64,000 nucleotides of DNA from Alteromonadales bacterium alter-6D02 (GTDB taxonomy: Bacteria > Pseudomonadota > Gammaproteobacteria > Enterobacterales > Psychrobiaceae), in the NCBI GenBank assembly GCA_002835545.1, contig PIZK01000014.1:186001-250000 (forward strand). The letters run 5' to 3'. Within the stretch, counting starts at the first letter, position 1. The number at the start of each line of letters is the position of its first letter. The notes beneath the pieces are model-generated. The model saw nothing but the letters and a program-made list of their open reading frames with translations. It made no database searches and was not told the DNA's origin. Shown in pieces: positions 48,614 to 55,252 of this stretch. The position numbers and the translations under genes are program-made.

Positions 48614-48639
48614 CTTGCGGCATTATGCCGCAAGTTTTT
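48614..48639 (+). terminator. Terminator overlapping the stop codon of the convergent gene
   Basis: CTTGCGGCAT (48614-48623) pairs with ATGCCGCAAG (48625-48634), then TTTTT to 48639 on the plus strand. It probably ends epmB and the following small gene. The hairpin spans the end of the opposite gene. Confidence 0.8.
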
Positions 48640-49039
48640 GCCCTTTACGCATCGAAAATGCTTTCATAATTTGTTGCTGACGTTCAACTAAATTACTGCT
48701 GATAAAGCATAAACGGCTACCGGTTTTTTGCTGCTCTAAAATACCAGGAATTTGTTGCGCCATGATCTCGTCATCATCGCTCAAGGCATATAATTGCACT
48801 TCGTCGCCAGGAATAGAGCATAGAGCTTCATAAGCACCAGTACCAACAGGTGTTAAGTTGATATCGTTTTCTACGATCTCGCCACCAGCTAGCGCACAGT
48901 AAATTTCTTCACCAGAAAACTCACTTTTAATTACCATATACTGCACTTCTTCTTGGTAATCTAAACCTAAGCTATTTAGAACAAGACGGTTTGTTTCTGC
49001 ACTTGCGTGCGCATTCGTTGCCATTTCACTTTTAAACAT
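48623..49039 (-). CDS. Conserved-looking cytoplasmic protein of unknown function
   Basis: 138 residues from the ATG at 49039, with AAGGA 10 bases upstream. A frame extending to 49192 has a hydrophobic, AT-rich N-terminus without a ribosome site and is judged non-coding there. The body is acidic (LDYQEEVQYMVIKSEFSGEEIY; YALSDDDEIMAQQ) and the C-terminus basic (MRKGQKLAA). No family is recognised. Confidence 0.7.
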   Translation of the reverse strand: MFKSEMATNAHASAETNRLVLNSLGLDYQEEVQYMVIKSEFSGEEIYCALAGGEIVENDINLTPVGTGAYEALCSIPGDEVQLYALSDDDEIMAQQIPGILEQQKTGSRLCFISSNLVERQQQIMKAFSMRKGQKLAA

Positions 49040-49238
49040 AACGTTATTCCTTATTACTAGTGCCAGAAAGCTGTTATAAACACTGGCAATACTTAATGAA
49101 TTTATAATCATTAAATATAAAGCAATATCAATGCCAAAAGTTAGACTTATAGTATCTTCATGATAATTATATATATTAATAATCAGAAGCAATGGTCAAA
49201 TATCCGCAACGATCCTATAGCGGCAAAAAGATCCTTTT

Positions 49239-49990: not shown

Positions 49991-50737
49991 CTAAAAAGTC
50001 ACCACAAATAATTGTGACCAGCGCTTACCTGTAATGATGAATTGCTGTTGTTGTTGGTTAAAAGCAATACCATTTAAAACATCTTCGTTACCGCTAGGCT
50101 GTTCAATAGCGACTATGTAACTGCAGTCAATGATACGTTCTACTTGACCAGATAATGGACTGACTTGATAAATAAAATGATCGCTGAGCCGATTAATATA
50201 CAAGGAGCCATTAGCGAAGATTAGATCGTTTAGCCAGCGTAATGGTTTACCTTTGATCATAACTCGAACGTCACTAACGACTTCAAAATGATGATTCAAG
50301 AACTGTAAACGCTCACTGCCATCCGTCATGACAAAGCCATCATCAATGCTCGCTAGACCCCAGCCTTCACCTTGGTAAGGTAGCTCTGTAATCGGCTGTA
50401 AATCTGTCAGGCGGTAGACCATTGCTATTTGTGATTGCCATGTTAATTGAATAAGTTGCTCACGATTACAGGCAATACCTTCACCCCAATGGTCTTCAAG
50501 TGGGTGGGATAGCTCAGGTATTGCATGTTCAAAAGATAGACGCCGCACCGTAGACTCACCAATTAATCCGGTGCTTTCATATAAGCACCCTTGTTCAAAG
50601 ACAAGACCTTGAGTAAATGCTCGCGGATCATGAGGGTAAACAGCTATTATCTGAGGTGTAACAATTGGAATATTGAAGTACCACAATTGTTGGTAAGTTT
50701 GCCTAGCCGCTTGTTTGATACGAGCGAGTGAGCTCAC
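49991..50737 (-). CDS. Glutaminyl-peptide cyclotransferase (bacterial/plant beta-propeller type)
   Basis: 248 residues, GTG start inside the stop of the previous gene. Family features: VYPHDPRAFTQGLVFEQGCLYESTGLIGESTVR, GEGWGLASIDDGFVMTDGSERL and VLNGIAFN near the end. Such enzymes convert N-terminal glutamine to pyroglutamate. Most relatives are exported; this one shows no signal peptide, so a cytoplasmic location is likely. Last gene of a four-gene operon with a deacetylase and two acyltransferases. Confidence 0.88.
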   Translation of the reverse strand: MSSLARIKQAARQTYQQLWYFNIPIVTPQIIAVYPHDPRAFTQGLVFEQGCLYESTGLIGESTVRRLSFEHAIPELSHPLEDHWGEGIACNREQLIQLTWQSQIAMVYRLTDLQPITELPYQGEGWGLASIDDGFVMTDGSERLQFLNHHFEVVSDVRVMIKGKPLRWLNDLIFANGSLYINRLSDHFIYQVSPLSGQVERIIDCSYIVAIEQPSGNEDVLNGIAFNQQQQQFIITGKRWSQLFVVTF

Positions 50738-51873
50738 GACTGTTGTTCCTGTTTGATAACAGCCTTAATCCTATCCTTCGCTGTTGCCTTGATACGGTTA
50801 ATCATGTCAATCAAATGATAAAAACGACCCAACCCCGTCGCTCGATTAAAACTGACCAAGCCATAACGTTCGCGCCGTTGAGTCACCCAAGTTTGCTTAT
50901 ATCGATCATCATCTGTACCAAAATCGAGTTCAGTGACACCATCTTGCTCAATCACATGCTCAACCATCAACATAATGGCAATAGCACCTACAGAGTCATG
51001 TTGGTAGGCTTGTATATAAGCGGTGCGCATCATCACACACTGCGTGCCTGTGACAATTGCAAATTCAAAGGCCACGGGGTTTCCATCAAGATAAATACAT
51101 AAAAATCGTAAACGTCCCTGCGCTGCCGCCCTCCGTATTAGTTGTGGGTAGAATTGCTCAAATAAATCCGGCTCCTTCCAACTCTGTTGGTAAATCTCCA
51201 GATAAATCCCTACAGCTAATTCGGCTTCATCAGCTTGAGAAAATAGTTTAATCGTCATACGCTGCTGGCGTTGTAGTTTTCGACACTTTCGCTGATAGTT
51301 TTTTATCGCTTTTTTATTTGATTTGCTCCGACTACTGACGTATTGCTCAAAGTCGGCAAAAGCAAAACGTTCATACCAGTTCCCCTTGTAAAGGTAAGGC
51401 TGACAGTAAAAGTTACTTTGATTTAACGTTTGATGAATCACCTTATAAGCCATCGTTTGCGGGGCCATTAGATTAAGATCAATTAAATGCCATCGCGGTT
51501 TTGACTTTACTAAGTAGCCAATTAGTTTGACTAACGCCGTTTGGCTATCACTATCTTCATCATCAACCAAAACAGAGAAAAAACTGGATTGAAAATTAGT
51601 TAAACCTGCAAGAGAGTGGCGACTGAGCACCCAATGGGCAAACTTAGAACCATTTTGTCCAGCAGGGGTTCGTAAGAACGCTAGTGCAAGGCATTGCTGC
51701 TGATCATTTTCCACCACATAGATAGACACTTGAGCATCCGCTTCTAATCCCGCATTCATCATTGTGCTAAACCATAACTCACTTAAATAAAGATTGTTAG
51801 CTGCTTGCCGCCGCATTAGTAAGTGAGCCGACTCAGGCAAATCATGTAAAGATTTATAGTCATTAACGTTCAC
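50734..51873 (-). CDS. GNAT/CelD-like acyltransferase (BioF2 family), second of two
   Basis: 379 residues, GTG start with AGGAG upstream. The C-terminal half has the acyltransferase pattern of the CelD/BcsL and FemAB-like group (SKSNKKAIKNYQRKCRKL; GRLRFLCIYLDGNPVAFEF; DFGTDDDRYKQTWVTQRRERYG). Family members transfer acyl or aminoacyl groups, often to amino sugars in surface polymers. The donor and acceptor are unknown. Follows the other acyltransferase by 14 bases and overlaps the cyclase by four. Confidence 0.8.
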   Translation of the reverse strand: MNVNDYKSLHDLPESAHLLMRRQAANNLYLSELWFSTMMNAGLEADAQVSIYVVENDQQQCLALAFLRTPAGQNGSKFAHWVLSRHSLAGLTNFQSSFFSVLVDDEDSDSQTALVKLIGYLVKSKPRWHLIDLNLMAPQTMAYKVIHQTLNQSNFYCQPYLYKGNWYERFAFADFEQYVSSRSKSNKKAIKNYQRKCRKLQRQQRMTIKLFSQADEAELAVGIYLEIYQQSWKEPDLFEQFYPQLIRRAAAQGRLRFLCIYLDGNPVAFEFAIVTGTQCVMMRTAYIQAYQHDSVGAIAIMLMVEHVIEQDGVTELDFGTDDDRYKQTWVTQRRERYGLVSFNRATGLGRFYHLIDMINRIKATAKDRIKAVIKQEQQS

Positions 51874-51887
51874 TGGTAACGCTCCTA

Positions 51888-53537
51888 TTAATTGTGGCTA
51901 AGCAGTTGAGATAACTCAGTGCTAGCACTATCAACATAGGAAAATGCTGAATGGTGGAATTGTTTGCTTTTCAAGTATTCATCACTAACCAATAGAGTCA
52001 ACTGTCCCGATTTTTCACGTCTAATAACCTCCCGTTGTACTATCCCGATGAGATAAGATTGGCGCTCATTTTCAGCGAGACTTTCAGCACAATAAATATC
52101 CGCGAGTAAACAAAAATTCTCACTGTTCGCAGGATGATCTTCAGCGGCCTCTCTATGCTTAGAAGGGGGAACTACCCAGCCGCAACTCTTTACTACGCCC
52201 AACTCTTTAACACTATAGCCCGTCGCACCCGCTTCAAGCCTTGCTAAGCAATGGCTTAGAAAGTGACTCTGCTGCTCCATGCTCAACTGACAACTAAACT
52301 CCACAAAGTCGACTAATTGGTTTTCCCTGATAACGAAACTCACCTCGACAGCTAACAAGCTGCAAATGTTAATCTGATAATTATCATAAGCCTCTACAAT
52401 ACTTACTGGCTGTGTCTGCAGTCCCAACCGTTGACGTAAGCATTGAGCTTTATCACGCGCTTGTTGAGGAGTCATGTCGCAATGCCGTAATAAACGCTTG
52501 CAGCTTGTTAATAATAGCTCACTCAAACAAGCTCGATAGTATGCAATTGGCTCAATAAAAAGGCGCAACACACTCACGTTTGCATAGGCGTTAGCATAAC
52601 GAGCTTTCCAAGTCCCCCCGGGGGTTAAATCGATCGCTTTGAGTTGACGTTCAGCAAGTAATTGAGCCCCCATCAACATCAGTAACTTTCCTGGCGAATG
52701 CCGAGAGTAAGTCGGATCATAACTAAAAACAGCAACACTGAATTCGCCTTGGTTGATCACACCAACCACAGCAGCAATAATAGTATTATTGAGTGTCATT
52801 TTTAATATTTTCACATCCTGATGGTGGCTTATTAGCGCATGTGTAAAGGCCAATTTATGACTGTCCTGCCTAAAGGGTAAGCAATGATTAACCGCCCCTT
52901 GGCGTAAGTCATAGCAGGTCGCTATACGTTGTAGATCATCGTCAAAGCCACTTGCTCCCTCGGAGACTAACTCGATACTGACATCTCCTAGTTTTCGTAA
53001 GCGAGACAGCTTACTTTTATTACTTTTTTTACGTAACGAAGCCCATGGGGCCTGCTTGGCGTCAAAACGTATTAAAGGTTGTTGCTCATTACGCATGATA
53101 TGACGCGCTGTTAATTGATCGGTTGTTGCAATGATATGGCTAAGTATTGGCGGTAAAAATTTTAGTGTAAGTTCGGGGAAATATGTCTGCCCTTTAAGCA
53201 GCACTAGTCCTCGCTTTAGAAATGAGTCAAAACGATCATTACATGATAGCCAACACTGATATTCAGCTTGATGAGCGCCTGCATGGACAATCATCGAAGT
53301 TGATTGGTCTTGTGCTAACAGCCAGAGGTTTTGCACGCCTTGTTCATTTTCTTCTAGAACAACCAATGGAAGATAAGCGTGGTTATAATGTTCAAACCAA
53401 CACAAGATAAACTCCACTGATTGAAAAGGCGTTGCCCATCGACATGCTTGGTAGAGCTCAAACCATTGCTGCTGAAACACTTTACAGTTAAGTTTACTGA
53501 GTGCCTGCTCTCCAGCTAATAACTGTACCTTTTGCAT
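51888..53537 (-). CDS. GNAT/CelD-like acyltransferase with C-terminal extension, first of two
   Basis: About 549 residues. The first 330 residues are a CelD-like GNAT fold (SLRKKSNKSKLSRLRKLG; KILKMTLNNTIIAAVVGVI; AIDLTPGGTWKARYANAY). The remaining roughly 200 residues are an extra domain with no recognised family. ATG at 53537 overlaps the TGA of the deacetylase gene; a GTG just before is possible. Same operon as the deacetylase, the second acyltransferase and glutaminyl cyclase. Confidence 0.75.
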   Translation of the reverse strand: MQKVQLLAGEQALSKLNCKVFQQQWFELYQACRWATPFQSVEFILCWFEHYNHAYLPLVVLEENEQGVQNLWLLAQDQSTSMIVHAGAHQAEYQCWLSCNDRFDSFLKRGLVLLKGQTYFPELTLKFLPPILSHIIATTDQLTARHIMRNEQQPLIRFDAKQAPWASLRKKSNKSKLSRLRKLGDVSIELVSEGASGFDDDLQRIATCYDLRQGAVNHCLPFRQDSHKLAFTHALISHHQDVKILKMTLNNTIIAAVVGVINQGEFSVAVFSYDPTYSRHSPGKLLMLMGAQLLAERQLKAIDLTPGGTWKARYANAYANVSVLRLFIEPIAYYRACLSELLLTSCKRLLRHCDMTPQQARDKAQCLRQRLGLQTQPVSIVEAYDNYQINICSLLAVEVSFVIRENQLVDFVEFSCQLSMEQQSHFLSHCLARLEAGATGYSVKELGVVKSCGWVVPPSKHREAAEDHPANSENFCLLADIYCAESLAENERQSYLIGIVQREVIRREKSGQLTLLVSDEYLKSKQFHHSAFSYVDSASTELSQLLSHN

Positions 53538-54568
53538 CACCCCTGCCCTCTAAGCTGCCTAATGAGCTGGTTAAAGCCGCATACTTCGGCTTCAAACTCG
53601 ATTTGACTGACTCGTGAGCTATCTAGGATCCGATCTAAGCTATAATGTGGCGTATCATAGTCAACTAATCGAGGGGTACATGTTGTTGCCGTAAGTACTT
53701 GTTGCTGTTGTAAGATAGGCCAATGTGCGGGTTTCCAATCACCACTAGGGTAACAAAAATGCACCATAGGCGTGGCTAATAACGGATTAACCTTTTGTTT
53801 ATTTCTAACGAGAGCATCACGAGCAAGCTCACTATCAACAGGCAGTTCATGGCGATGAGTATGCAACTGAATATCAACTCCTAATGCAATGAGCTGCTTT
53901 AATTCCTGCTGATTAATCAGCCCCAAGATACGGCTACTTTTTAGCTGCCCATAATCAACGTTTAAACACTCACCTAAGCGCTGTAACAATAATTCTCGGC
54001 ACTCAGCATCGGGAAGGCTTTGTCCATGTTGTTTTAACTGTTCTCTCAACTTAAGTTTATTATCATCGGTTAACGGTACTTTTTCAGTTGGTAGAGATAC
54101 GATATGCAATTCGTCTAAGGACACCTGCTTGCATTGCGTTTTCCAGAACATATAGTCAACGGTTAAGGTAAAAATAGGCTCCAGCCGATCAAAATAATAA
54201 GAGGTAAGGTAAAGCGTTGCAGGATAATTGTATTGATGTAACAGCGGTGCAGCGAGCTTATAAACACTGTAAAAGCCATCATCGATAGTTAATACGACGG
54301 CATCGTCGGGGAAACTTTGTTGTTTATAATCACAATAGGCTTGGTCTAAAGTTATCACTTGATAATTATGCTGCTTTAAATACTCTAATCGGCGTTCAAA
54401 TTCCGCTAATCGAATAAACAACCCCGGAACAAACAGCTCTTCATCTTGCAAGCTAAAGCCGTGATAGCACAAGATTCTCAACTTCTTCTTCATCAACAAA
54501 CGTGACAAGATAAATAAGCCACAATACTTGCAACAGTAATAAAAAAATCGCTTGAGCGGTTCGCGCAT
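53537..54568 (-). CDS. Polysaccharide deacetylase (NodB/CE4 family)
   Basis: 343 residues. NodB domain: LRILCYHGF, then the catalytic metal-binding TIDDGF and HTHRHELP (the H-x3-H-type motif). A short hydrophobic N-terminus (FFYYCCKYCGLFILSRLL) may be a membrane anchor. Removes N-acetyl groups from a polysaccharide, leaving free amines. First gene of the operon, start overlap of its stop with the next gene. Substrate unknown. Confidence 0.88.
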   Translation of the reverse strand: MREPLKRFFYYCCKYCGLFILSRLLMKKKLRILCYHGFSLQDEELFVPGLFIRLAEFERRLEYLKQHNYQVITLDQAYCDYKQQSFPDDAVVLTIDDGFYSVYKLAAPLLHQYNYPATLYLTSYYFDRLEPIFTLTVDYMFWKTQCKQVSLDELHIVSLPTEKVPLTDDNKLKLREQLKQHGQSLPDAECRELLLQRLGECLNVDYGQLKSSRILGLINQQELKQLIALGVDIQLHTHRHELPVDSELARDALVRNKQKVNPLLATPMVHFCYPSGDWKPAHWPILQQQQVLTATTCTPRLVDYDTPHYSLDRILDSSRVSQIEFEAEVCGFNQLIRQLRGQG

Positions 54569-54636
54569 TCATCGACTCCATTCATTGAATGATTCAGTTA
54601 TAAATGTGAAAGGGCCACGCCTAGACTCTCCTCTAC

Positions 54637-54726
54637 TCATAACTAACAAGGAACTATGTCTATGAGATAAGTATAGATAGGATTTAACATTCTTCCATTA
54701 TCTATAGATAGGTTCCTTAGTTATGA
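54637..54726. repeat. Large imperfect inverted repeat upstream of the deacetylase operon
   Basis: TCATAACTAA (54637-54646) with TTAGTTATGA (54717-54726), then GGAAC (54650-54654) with GTTCC (54712-54716). Inside, the direct repeat TATAGATAGG occurs at 54672-54681 and 54703-54712. Confidence 0.65.
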
Positions 54727-55226
54727 TTAAAAACAAGCAACAACTTAGTAGGCAATAAAGCTACTGCATGGAGAATCCCGAAGTTAAACAGCTTTTCCTT
54801 TAAGTGTGATGGGAAGAAATCTTGACTAATTTAGAGTCATCACATTTCAGTGACGATAGCTTGAAAAAATCGTTCGATTAACTAACTGCAGGATATTGAG
54901 GTGAAGCGCACGAGGTTGAATTTATTTTAATCCCAATTCCGTTAATCAAGTAAGCAATTTTGTAACGTGAATAAACCGATTAGTGCATTGATTCCATGTT
55001 CCAAATAGGCGCTAAGTAGTGACCTTAATGACGACAAGCAATTAATTATATATACAGTTTTCTGCATAGTCGTAACTAACACTGCTGTCATTCACTTAGT
55101 CCGTGCAAAGTAACCAAGCTAATAATGGAATTGATTTAACTGGCCTAAGTGGACAAACATTTAGTTCAGTGGGTATAGCATTACTCCAAAAGCAATAACT
55201 TCAGAAACTTGATGTAAACCCCTCTC

Positions 55227-55252
55227 AAAAAAAAAGCGCCATACAGCGCTTA
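55227..55252 (-). terminator. Terminator of the DUF3718 gene
   Basis: AAGCGC (55234-55239) pairs with GCGCTT (55246-55251); nine T follow on the minus strand. Confidence 0.85.

Follow-up and report, generated by a model that had tools for sequence, protein, structure and literature searches.

We have found that the link to polysaccharide of a compact four-gene operon of a marine bacterium, located at positions 49991-54568 of the window (i.e. the whole stretch of 64,000 nucleotides of DNA that was analysed), is well supported, and we tentatively propose, at slightly less than even confidence, that this operon is a cytoplasmic, pre-export decoration module and a satellite of the exosortase-A (XrtA/PEP-CTERM) exopolysaccharide system, acting by deacetylation, then aminoacylation, then addition of a pyroglutamyl cap. 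The genes, read from 5' to 3' on the minus strand, encode a polysaccharide deacetylase (DAC), two transferases (AT1 and AT2) and a glutaminyl cyclase (QC). According to our proposal, DAC would strip the N-acetyl group from an amino sugar of a lipid-linked or nucleotide-linked precursor; AT1 and/or AT2 would load an aminoacyl group onto the freed amine, the donor probably being an aminoacyl-tRNA and the outermost residue being Gln; QC would then cyclise the glutaminyl group to a pyroglutamyl group, leaving the sugar with a neutral cap. What we infer here is the acceptor and the compartment, the sequence of the steps, the reliance on tRNA, the choice of Gln among the amino acids, and pyroglutamyl as the product; the complete tRNA-fed route to pyroglutamyl amino sugars, where a cytoplasmic QC would cap the glutaminyl-sugar made by the FemX-like transferases on a deacetylated exopolysaccharide precursor, is rather doubtful. 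As the compact operon would supply an enzyme for every proposed step, the aminoacyl/pyroglutamyl decoration of the exopolysaccharide could be tested directly; if the proposal is true, the operon would be a candidate route by which bacterial surface glycans receive 5-oxoprolyl and aminoacyl groups, the glutaminyl cyclase would gain a concrete non-peptide role, and the XrtA system would be extended by a satellite module. To our knowledge, a non-peptide substrate for such a cyclase would be a first.

The proposed product has chemical precedents: 5-oxoprolyl-type N-acyl groups are described, in the extracts of PMC10609480, on the amino sugars of the O-antigens of V. anguillarum V-123, P. shigelloides O74 and V. 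cholerae O5, and represent the same chemistry as a pyroglutamoyl-type N-acyl amino sugar; unlike the proposed exopolysaccharide product, the groups in these extracts are ring-substituted and occur in lipopolysaccharide. A marine Colwellia polysaccharide decorated with Thr/Ala (review PMC5852497) and a marine Vibrio polysaccharide with Ala/Ser amide-linked to uronic acids (PMC4663550) are likewise described in extracts of the two sources, where the amino-acid decorations are known chemically and the decoration genes are unnamed.

The minus strand carries four open reading frames at exactly these positions, all of them real, and the first-pass annotation was right that their start and stop codons overlap or nearly touch: DAC and AT1 overlap by 4 nt (by 1 nt, if AT1 begins at the ATG directly after the GTG), AT1 and AT2 are separated by a 14-nt gap with an AGGAG ahead of the GTG of AT2, and AT2 and QC overlap by 4 nt. 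Upstream of the operon, a terminator-like hairpin with a T run (55234..55251, minus strand) is located 3' of a DUF3718 gene, so that the operon probably has its own promoter in the intergenic stretch between the hairpin and DAC (54569..55233, minus strand); the hairpin is weighed by its shape and place and not by count, as six terminator-like sites occur in the region and 4.8 are expected. On the minus strand of this intergenic stretch, no sigma-54-type site (2 mismatches; 44 in the window, 42.6 expected) and no sigma-70-type site (11 matches, 16 expected) has been found. The base composition of the operon (0.423) is close to that of the window (0.414) and gives no sign of recent patchwork. 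An anti-phage defence role was also considered for the operon and rejected, PADLOC having given no match.

DAC (53537..54568, minus strand, 343 aa), the product of the first gene, matches Polysacc_deac_1 at 46 bits (cut-off 23.1) and holds the stretches TIDDGF, HTHRH and CYPSG, which we take to be deacetylase motifs. It belongs to the same deacetylase superfamily as the poly-GlcNAc deacetylases PgaB and IcaB, and weakly matches TIGR03938, TIGR03933 and PgaB structures, but lies far under the curated cut-offs (64 bits versus 321.9 for the PgaB N-deacetylase model TIGR03938) and is instead paired or fused with a transferase. Because of this pairing or fusion, DAC is probably cytoplasmic; its N-terminal stretch is moderately hydrophobic, and the hydropathy (1.66) is about as high as in the exported QC with the lowest value (1.63), so DAC might instead be anchored in the membrane or exported.

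Both transferases belong to Acetyltransf_6 by sequence, AT1 (51888..53540, minus strand, 550 aa) at 45 bits and AT2 (50734..51873, minus strand, 379 aa) at 92 bits, both scores exceeding the cut-off; thus, their earlier description as CelD-like holds for the sequence family, while their predicted folds are closest to FemX. For AT1 (pLDDT 81, pTM 0.81), the top PDB match of the model is FemX, with Z of about 20 over 295-299 residues, compared to Z of at most 14.9 for acetyl-CoA tandem GNATs; for AT2 (pLDDT 80, pTM 0.76), the top matches are FemX/FemA, with Z of 17.9-19.5, and the lead of FemX is small, since acyl-CoA tandem GNATs reach Z of up to 16.7. FemX, FemA and aminoacyl-tRNA-dependent synthases top the structure lists of both proteins, and both folds are predicted to be nearest to the FemX-type aminoacyl-tRNA-dependent transferases. 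As in the FemABX family, AT1 (aa 1-341) and AT2 show a predicted tandem-GNAT fold (best Z 17.9-20.3), and K312 of AT1, invariant in 10 AT1 rows, and K326 of AT2, kept in 4/5 AT2 rows, are placed at about the position of Lys305 of FemX, as judged from the end points of the alignments and not residue by residue. They differ from FemABX in that AT2 scores 19 bits against FemAB_like (cut-off 27), with no FemAB profile match listed for AT1, in that the acceptor would here be a sugar amine and not a peptidoglycan peptide, and in that AT1 bears a further GNAT domain; PDB sequence-profile searches gave no FemX match. A predicted FemX-like fold does not establish the use of tRNA, as acyl-CoA enzymes have the same fold. 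One relative of AT2 is fused to an ATP-grasp domain with a D-Ala-D-Ala ligase match (26.4 bits, cut-off 24), which suggests amino-acid chemistry.

The further domain of AT1 (about aa 385-540; 51921..52388, minus strand) had been noted as an extra domain of roughly 200 residues and of no recognised family. The size agrees when the linker is counted (about 155 residues for the domain itself), but the lack of a family does not stand: the corresponding domain exceeds Pfam GNAT cut-offs in four (L095, L081, L096 and L083) of nine AT1 relatives scanned, for example in L095 with Acetyltransf_1 at 34.8 bits (cut-off 20.7). The domain of the window's AT1 gave no GNAT profile score over the cut-off, nor did those of L098 (where the score is below it), L102, L037 and L107, and the relative in L077 is without a C-terminal domain. 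An R-G-x-G stretch that is present in L081, L083 and L095 is missing from the window's copy, which we read, from these alignments, as a decayed second GNAT domain, i.e. a GNAT relic. In other respects (the reading frames, their coupling, the families and the QC without an export signal), the first-pass annotation is borne out.

QC (49991..50737, minus strand, 248 aa) matches the profile of type I glutaminyl cyclases, the five-bladed propeller enzymes that bacteria and plants have (PF05096, Glu_cyclase_2), nearly over its full length (residues 19-247), at 227.5 bits (cut-off 22.3), with up to 40% identity to the compared rows. Its residues E86, N170 and K238 align with E69, N155 and K225 of the papaya enzyme, to which the extracts of PMC5837995 assign a catalytic role, and are identical in 41, 41 and 40, respectively, of 41 other cyclases; QC thus keeps the three named catalytic residues and may be active as a cyclase. 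It departs from its relatives at W84 (F in 38/41), D171 (E in 37/41) and L184 (aromatic in 40/41), in its operon with glycan-type enzymes and in its N-terminus, the hydropathy of which is 0.40, compared to 1.63-3.89 in the 41 other cyclases; these values were taken on stop-to-stop frames, with up to 70 residues ahead of the core, some of which are possibly untranslated. Only two of the 43 cyclases are without a hydrophobic N-terminus, namely the window's QC and that of a Nitrospirales locus (L087), in agreement, by hydropathy against 42 other QCs, with the earlier remark that QC has no signal peptide, unlike most relatives. A tree joins these two cyclases on long branches, with a support of 88/93 that is short of strong. 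Regarding the sampling of the order, six of its 11 other PF05096 matches were taken and five entered the comparison.

The four-gene set has not been found in any other genome searched: AT1 occurs in one of 295 genomes of the order and QC in one of nine genomes of the genus, both being absent from the other eight genus genomes searched, some of which are incomplete; a single-sequence scan of genome contigs for AT1 relatives gave 17 pattern matches, none of which was confirmed. Parts of the set do recur in other phyla. A scan with a two-row deacetylase alignment has defined a DAC subfamily of 51 loci across several phyla, where AT1 adjoins DAC in eight loci (seven head to tail, one divergent) and, by Pfam, is fused to it in one more, a Planctomycetota MAG, i.e. 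in 9/51 loci altogether; this count leaves out L093 and L112, whose AT1 matches are weak, as well as L107, whose AT1 is distant, and counts L078, which lies within L058, once. The pairing of AT1 and DAC is more than chance; the DAC that adjoins AT1 in L058 is 45% identical to that of the window. DAC, QC and AT2 are side by side in one of the 51 loci, L087, where AT2 is 34% identical to the window's. Asparagine-synthase-like genes precede these three genes; after them come a ligase that exceeds the TIGR03098 cut-off (629.7 versus 592.35 bits) and a TIGR03099-like decarboxylase that stays below its own (423 versus 478.45), and an exosortase is found on the same contig about 46 kb away. The three genes sit inside an exosortase-type exopolysaccharide cluster. 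QC is grouped with both DAC and AT2 in two loci only, that of the window and L087, while AT1, AT2 and DAC are absent from the examined flanks of 41 other QC loci (including L181).

It had been proposed before that the operon could modify a surface polymer with aminoacyl or pyroglutamyl groups. This idea gains from the recurrence of subsets, some in exopolysaccharide clusters, from the AT1-DAC fusion, the FemX-like folds and the N-terminus that QC shares with its Nitrospirales homologue, and from the presence of a candidate acceptor system, the XrtA exopolysaccharide locus that this genome carries; it loses from the restriction of the four-gene set, as far as searched, to this genome, and from genome G578, in which AT1 and DAC are paired but the single QC match that reaches 1e-15 or less lies elsewhere and has a hydrophobic N-terminus.

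The XrtA locus is located on contig C19, with an exosortase (TIGR02602, 226 bits) at C19:30964; nine of its ten scanned proteins are over the cut-off for XrtA-associated models (TIGR03007, 03027, 03013, 03006, 03019, 03108, 03087, 04063 and 03097), and the tenth scores 394 bits against TIGR03088 (409 bits). The operon, on contig C6, is outside this locus; hence the earlier statement that no glycosyltransferase or exporter is adjacent is true, such machinery being on another contig. The genome thus holds the XrtA/PEP-CTERM system (TIGR02602, TIGR03006, TIGR03019, TIGR03097, TIGR03108), including a deacetylase (TIGR03006) and a FemAB protein (TIGR03019) side by side, and relatives of DAC, QC and AT2 occur inside the exosortase-type cluster of Nitrospirales; the operon differs in being separate, in its different deacetylase, in its two Acetyltransf_6 proteins and in its QC, and is a proposed satellite of the XrtA system, not a member of the defined system. 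An exosortase over the cut-off is found in 38 of 49 genomes of the DAC subfamily, compared to 110/369 Gammaproteobacteria (Fisher p 2e-10), a rough background of one class whose phyla are unmatched to the DAC genomes; the 49 are the genomes of the 51 loci with L110 and L066 left out. It is present in 7/9 AT1-DAC genomes and missing from 11/49 DAC genomes, two of them with an AT1 neighbour (L078, L098), and, within the genus, the four of nine genomes that have an exosortase are also the four with AT2-like genes (p 0.008). By a hand-picked rule, exopolysaccharide markers are absent from the examined flank in 26/51 DAC loci; three loci (L101, L103, L112) were dropped as generic matches, and marker-bearing loci would number 28/51 with them, while the same rule dropped three generic matches among the control loci (3/30 if kept). 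Some markers were derived from L087 and L064, both among the 51, each of which also bears other markers. Within the open-licence literature searched, we have found no paper that names both exosortase and glutaminyl cyclase, or that joins exosortase, polysaccharide deacetylase and FemAB.

Part of this evidence can be read differently. It has a modest chance of being correct that the operon decorates the XrtA exopolysaccharide while AT1 and AT2 use acyl-CoA, for the N- or O-acylation that generic GNAT/CelD proteins would be expected to perform, and QC acts on something else or is a non-catalytic beta-propeller accessory: this would suit the placement of both transferases in Acetyltransf_6, the Z of up to 16.7 between acyl-CoA tandem GNATs and AT2, the classical GNAT that forms the second domain of AT1 relatives, and L184 of QC at a position that is aromatic in 40/41 relatives, but it does not account for the aminoacyl-tRNA-dependent enzymes at the top of both structure lists, the three catalytic residues that QC retains or the ATP-grasp fusion of an AT2 relative. 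Alternatively, the substrate of QC might be some peptide or small molecule of the cytoplasm that has nothing to do with glycans, and QC would have only the transcript in common with the other three genes, which would be the decoration module; we consider this unlikely. QC is near DAC in just 1/51 DAC loci, and AT1-DAC pairs exist without it, the QC of G578 being one that lies apart, but QC adjoins AT2 and DAC in another phylum, both cases being without the hydrophobic N-terminus, whereas the 41 other QC loci are without such neighbours in the examined flank.

That the genes are unrelated and were joined by chance or transfer, without a shared pathway, is very improbable: the absence of AT1 and QC from the other eight genus genomes searched, some incomplete, would be expected, but the overlapping start and stop codons, the subsets that recur in distant phyla, together with one fusion there, and the composition, so close to that of the window, all argue against it. 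Our preferred reading stays that of a decoration module of the XrtA exopolysaccharide.

In a plasmid collection, AT2 has no match, DAC has one distant record, and the QC queries gave 13 records each, all distant; AT1 has one homologue, from Caballeronia, which adjoins a MurJ-type flippase and a glycosyltransferase.

The region at 49991-54568 is occupied by four minus-strand open reading frames, read in the order deacetylase (DAC, 53537-54568), first transferase (AT1, 51888-53540), second transferase (AT2, 50734-51873) and type I glutaminyl cyclase (QC, 49991-50737), with Pfam matches over cut-off for all four proteins. The compact operon described by the first-pass annotation is borne out by the junctions: DAC and AT1 overlap by 4 bases, AT1 and AT2 are separated by a 14-base gap with AGGAG ahead of the AT2 start, and AT2 and QC again overlap by 4 bases. 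Since a terminator-like hairpin (55251-55234, minus strand) lies 3' of the gene upstream of the operon, the four genes most likely constitute a transcription unit of their own. The base composition of the operon (0.423) is like that of the window (0.414), and a PADLOC scan of the operon gave no match. A 189-aa open reading frame close by, at 48623-49192, has no Pfam or NCBIfam match.

AT1 was found in one of 295 genomes searched in the order and QC in one of nine in the genus, in both cases the window's own; across the class, a two-row AT1 profile matches 7 of 369 genomes at 1e-10, three of which (the window's own, G578 and G338) cover most of the model. The DAC subfamily, obtained from a contig scan with a two-row deacetylase alignment, comprises 51 loci, assigned by record titles to Gamma-, Alpha- and Betaproteobacteria, Nitrospirota, Planctomycetota, Acidobacteria, Desulfo-type and other bacteria. 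An AT1 homologue adjoins DAC in eight of them, head to tail in seven (L077, L078, L081, L083, L091, L095 and L096) and divergently in one (L098), while at a ninth, L102, the two are fused; in the Nitrospirales locus L087, DAC, QC and AT2 are consecutive, its QC and AT2 being 39% and 34% identical to those of the window. As neighbours, the four genes recur in these subsets, but no second instance of the exact set was found in the genomes and contigs searched; the association of QC with the other operon families amounts to two genomes, the window's and that of L087. In G578, the AT1-DAC pair is located at L058 (which contains L078), and the QC, with a hydrophobic N-terminus, lies away from the pair and has no such neighbours. 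AT1 homologues are also seen straight after methanopterin-type cofactor biosynthesis genes, identified by eye (L059:9408-11036, with an exosortase match in the same genome), and, on a Caballeronia plasmid (L037:11980-16692), after a glycosyltransferase that by eye resembles WecA, and a MurJ-type flippase.

The neighbourhoods of these loci suggest that the operon is probably a decoration module of an exopolysaccharide. Exosortases are tied to exopolysaccharide loci, with polysaccharide deacetylases among the co-profiled proteins (Haft et al. 2006, PMC1569441), the portion of that study's text considered here making no mention of a cyclase; a further published link to acylation is that of N-acyl amino acid synthases with PEP-CTERM/exosortase systems (PMC11072679). 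An exosortase scores over cut-off in 38 of 49 DAC-subfamily genomes vs 110 of 369 Gammaproteobacteria (p 2e-10), a rough comparison because the DAC genomes come from several phyla and are mostly MAGs, and in 7 of 9 genomes with the AT1-DAC pair. By a hand-picked rule, with markers taken from the exopolysaccharide locus of the window's own genome, from its hemC cassette and from a few relatives, at least one exopolysaccharide-type neighbour, counting generic glycosyltransferases, accompanies 25 of 51 DAC loci vs 0 of 30 control loci. The L087 cluster includes the exosortase-A-associated acyl-CoA ligase TIGR03098 (over cut-off); its relative of the decarboxylase TIGR03099, likewise exosortase-A-associated, and its asparagine-synthase-like proteins score below their cut-offs, and the contig also carries an exosortase at a distance of ~46 kb. 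On this Nitrospirales contig, two proteins of 1331 and 1701 aa, NRPS-like by eye, are encoded between the exosortase and DAC-QC-AT2 (L130:7523-16651).

The AlphaFold models of AT1 (pLDDT 81, pTM 0.81) and AT2 (pLDDT 80, pTM 0.76) both have FemX-type enzymes as their top structural matches. For AT1 residues 1-341, the top twenty are FemX, FemA, Sbb17/Sba18 and L-PGS/MprF-type aminoacyl-tRNA-dependent enzymes (Z 20.3-15.0), with the sole exception of 2hqy, a protein of unknown function (Z 16.1), and the best tandem acetyl-CoA GNAT follows at Z 14.9; for AT2 the lead is narrower (17.3-19.5 for FemX-type enzymes vs 16.7 for tandem GNATs). The likeness is one of predicted fold, whereas sequence profile searches with AT1 and AT2 did not reach FemX, so that by the tests made the two are not FemAB members and at best work like FemX. 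A lysine invariant across ten AT1 rows (K312), and one kept in four of five AT2 rows (K326), would lie, judging from alignment end points only, at about the position of Lys305, described in a review as the key residue of Weissella FemX (PMC12945691).

The C-terminal extra domain of AT1, previously regarded as belonging to no recognised family, proves to have relatives that do: in four of nine scanned (L095, L081, L096 and L083), the C-terminal part scores over the Pfam cut-off as a classical GNAT, with 34.8 bits for Acetyltransf_1 in L095. In the alignment, L081, L083 and L095 carry the motifs R-G-x-G and ADN-x-x-S, and L098 the latter; both are lost in the window AT1, whose extra domain falls below Pfam detection. 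L077 lacks the domain altogether. The extra domain is thus probably of GNAT descent rather than of unknown family, and it is not needed family-wide.

Most of the window QC can be aligned with four solved type I cyclases, and its E86, N170 and K238 correspond to E69, N155 and K225 of papaya cyclase (positions counted from the printed alignment), described as the proton shuttle and possible oxyanion residues (PMC5837995). It was also said to lack an export signal, unlike most relatives, and the comparison agrees: its maximum 12-residue N-terminal hydropathy is 0.40, and that of the L087 QC 1.19, vs 1.63-3.89 in 41 of 41 others (30 from 312 Gammaproteobacteria, 5 of 11 other matches in the order and 6 from 245 Nitrospirota). 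The two are sisters in the QC tree, on long branches and with moderate support (88/93). Neither the fetched flanks of 40 QC loci besides L087, several of them short at contig ends, nor that of L181, a locus whose QC escaped the ORF filter, contain AT1, AT2 or DAC. At W84, D171 and L184 the window QC departs from the majority of its relatives, in which these positions are F, E and aromatic, so its substrate or activity may have changed.

QC requires a Gln whose alpha-amine is free and whose carboxyl is amide-linked, which is just what FemX-type Gln transfer onto a sugar amine would yield. In the proposed mechanism, an amino sugar would be deacetylated, the freed amine aminoacylated by the FemX-like enzymes and the terminal Gln cyclised to pyroglutamyl, all before export through exopolysaccharide machinery. 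The L102 fusion (L102:6096-9107, a Planctomycetota MAG), a single reading frame of ~1003 aa in which Pfam detects both domains, has no strongly hydrophobic N-terminus (1.18 within the first 100 residues), which argues that deacetylase and transferase share one compartment, the cytoplasm; pointing the other way, an N-terminal stretch of the window DAC reaches a hydropathy of 1.66, and this deacetylase may be exported or attached to the membrane. The full cytoplasmic scheme is, in outline, a tentative reading, and its strong form, with Gln derived from tRNA, seems unlikely. 5-Oxoprolyl derivatives are described as N-acyl groups on amino sugars of O-antigens (PMC10609480), and marine polysaccharides as decorated with amino acids (PMC5852497), attached in one case to uronic acids, not amino sugars (PMC4663550).

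The bacterium from which the window comes may be marine, to judge by its relatives and gene content. In the window's own genome, the exosortase (C19:30964) is located within an XrtA exopolysaccharide locus, where nine of ten proteins scanned are over an XrtA-associated cut-off. Exosortase and AT2-like genes coincide in the same four of nine genomes of the genus, and at least three of these four carry a cassette of glycosyltransferase, asparagine-synthase-like protein and deacetylase next to hemC (L039:10074-14100, L042:7378-11469 and L045:9819-13940), which seems to be a second XrtA satellite. The three exosortase genomes other than the window's own have variable cassettes with Acetyltransf_6, DegT and ATP-grasp next to a tadA-like gene (L041:9798-14276, L043:8934-12066 and L044:1157-3439), the names hemC and tadA being assigned by eye; the two cassette types are consistent with further satellite kinds in the XrtA pattern. 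At L044, the AT2-like protein is fused to an ATP-grasp that matches D-Ala-D-Ala ligase.
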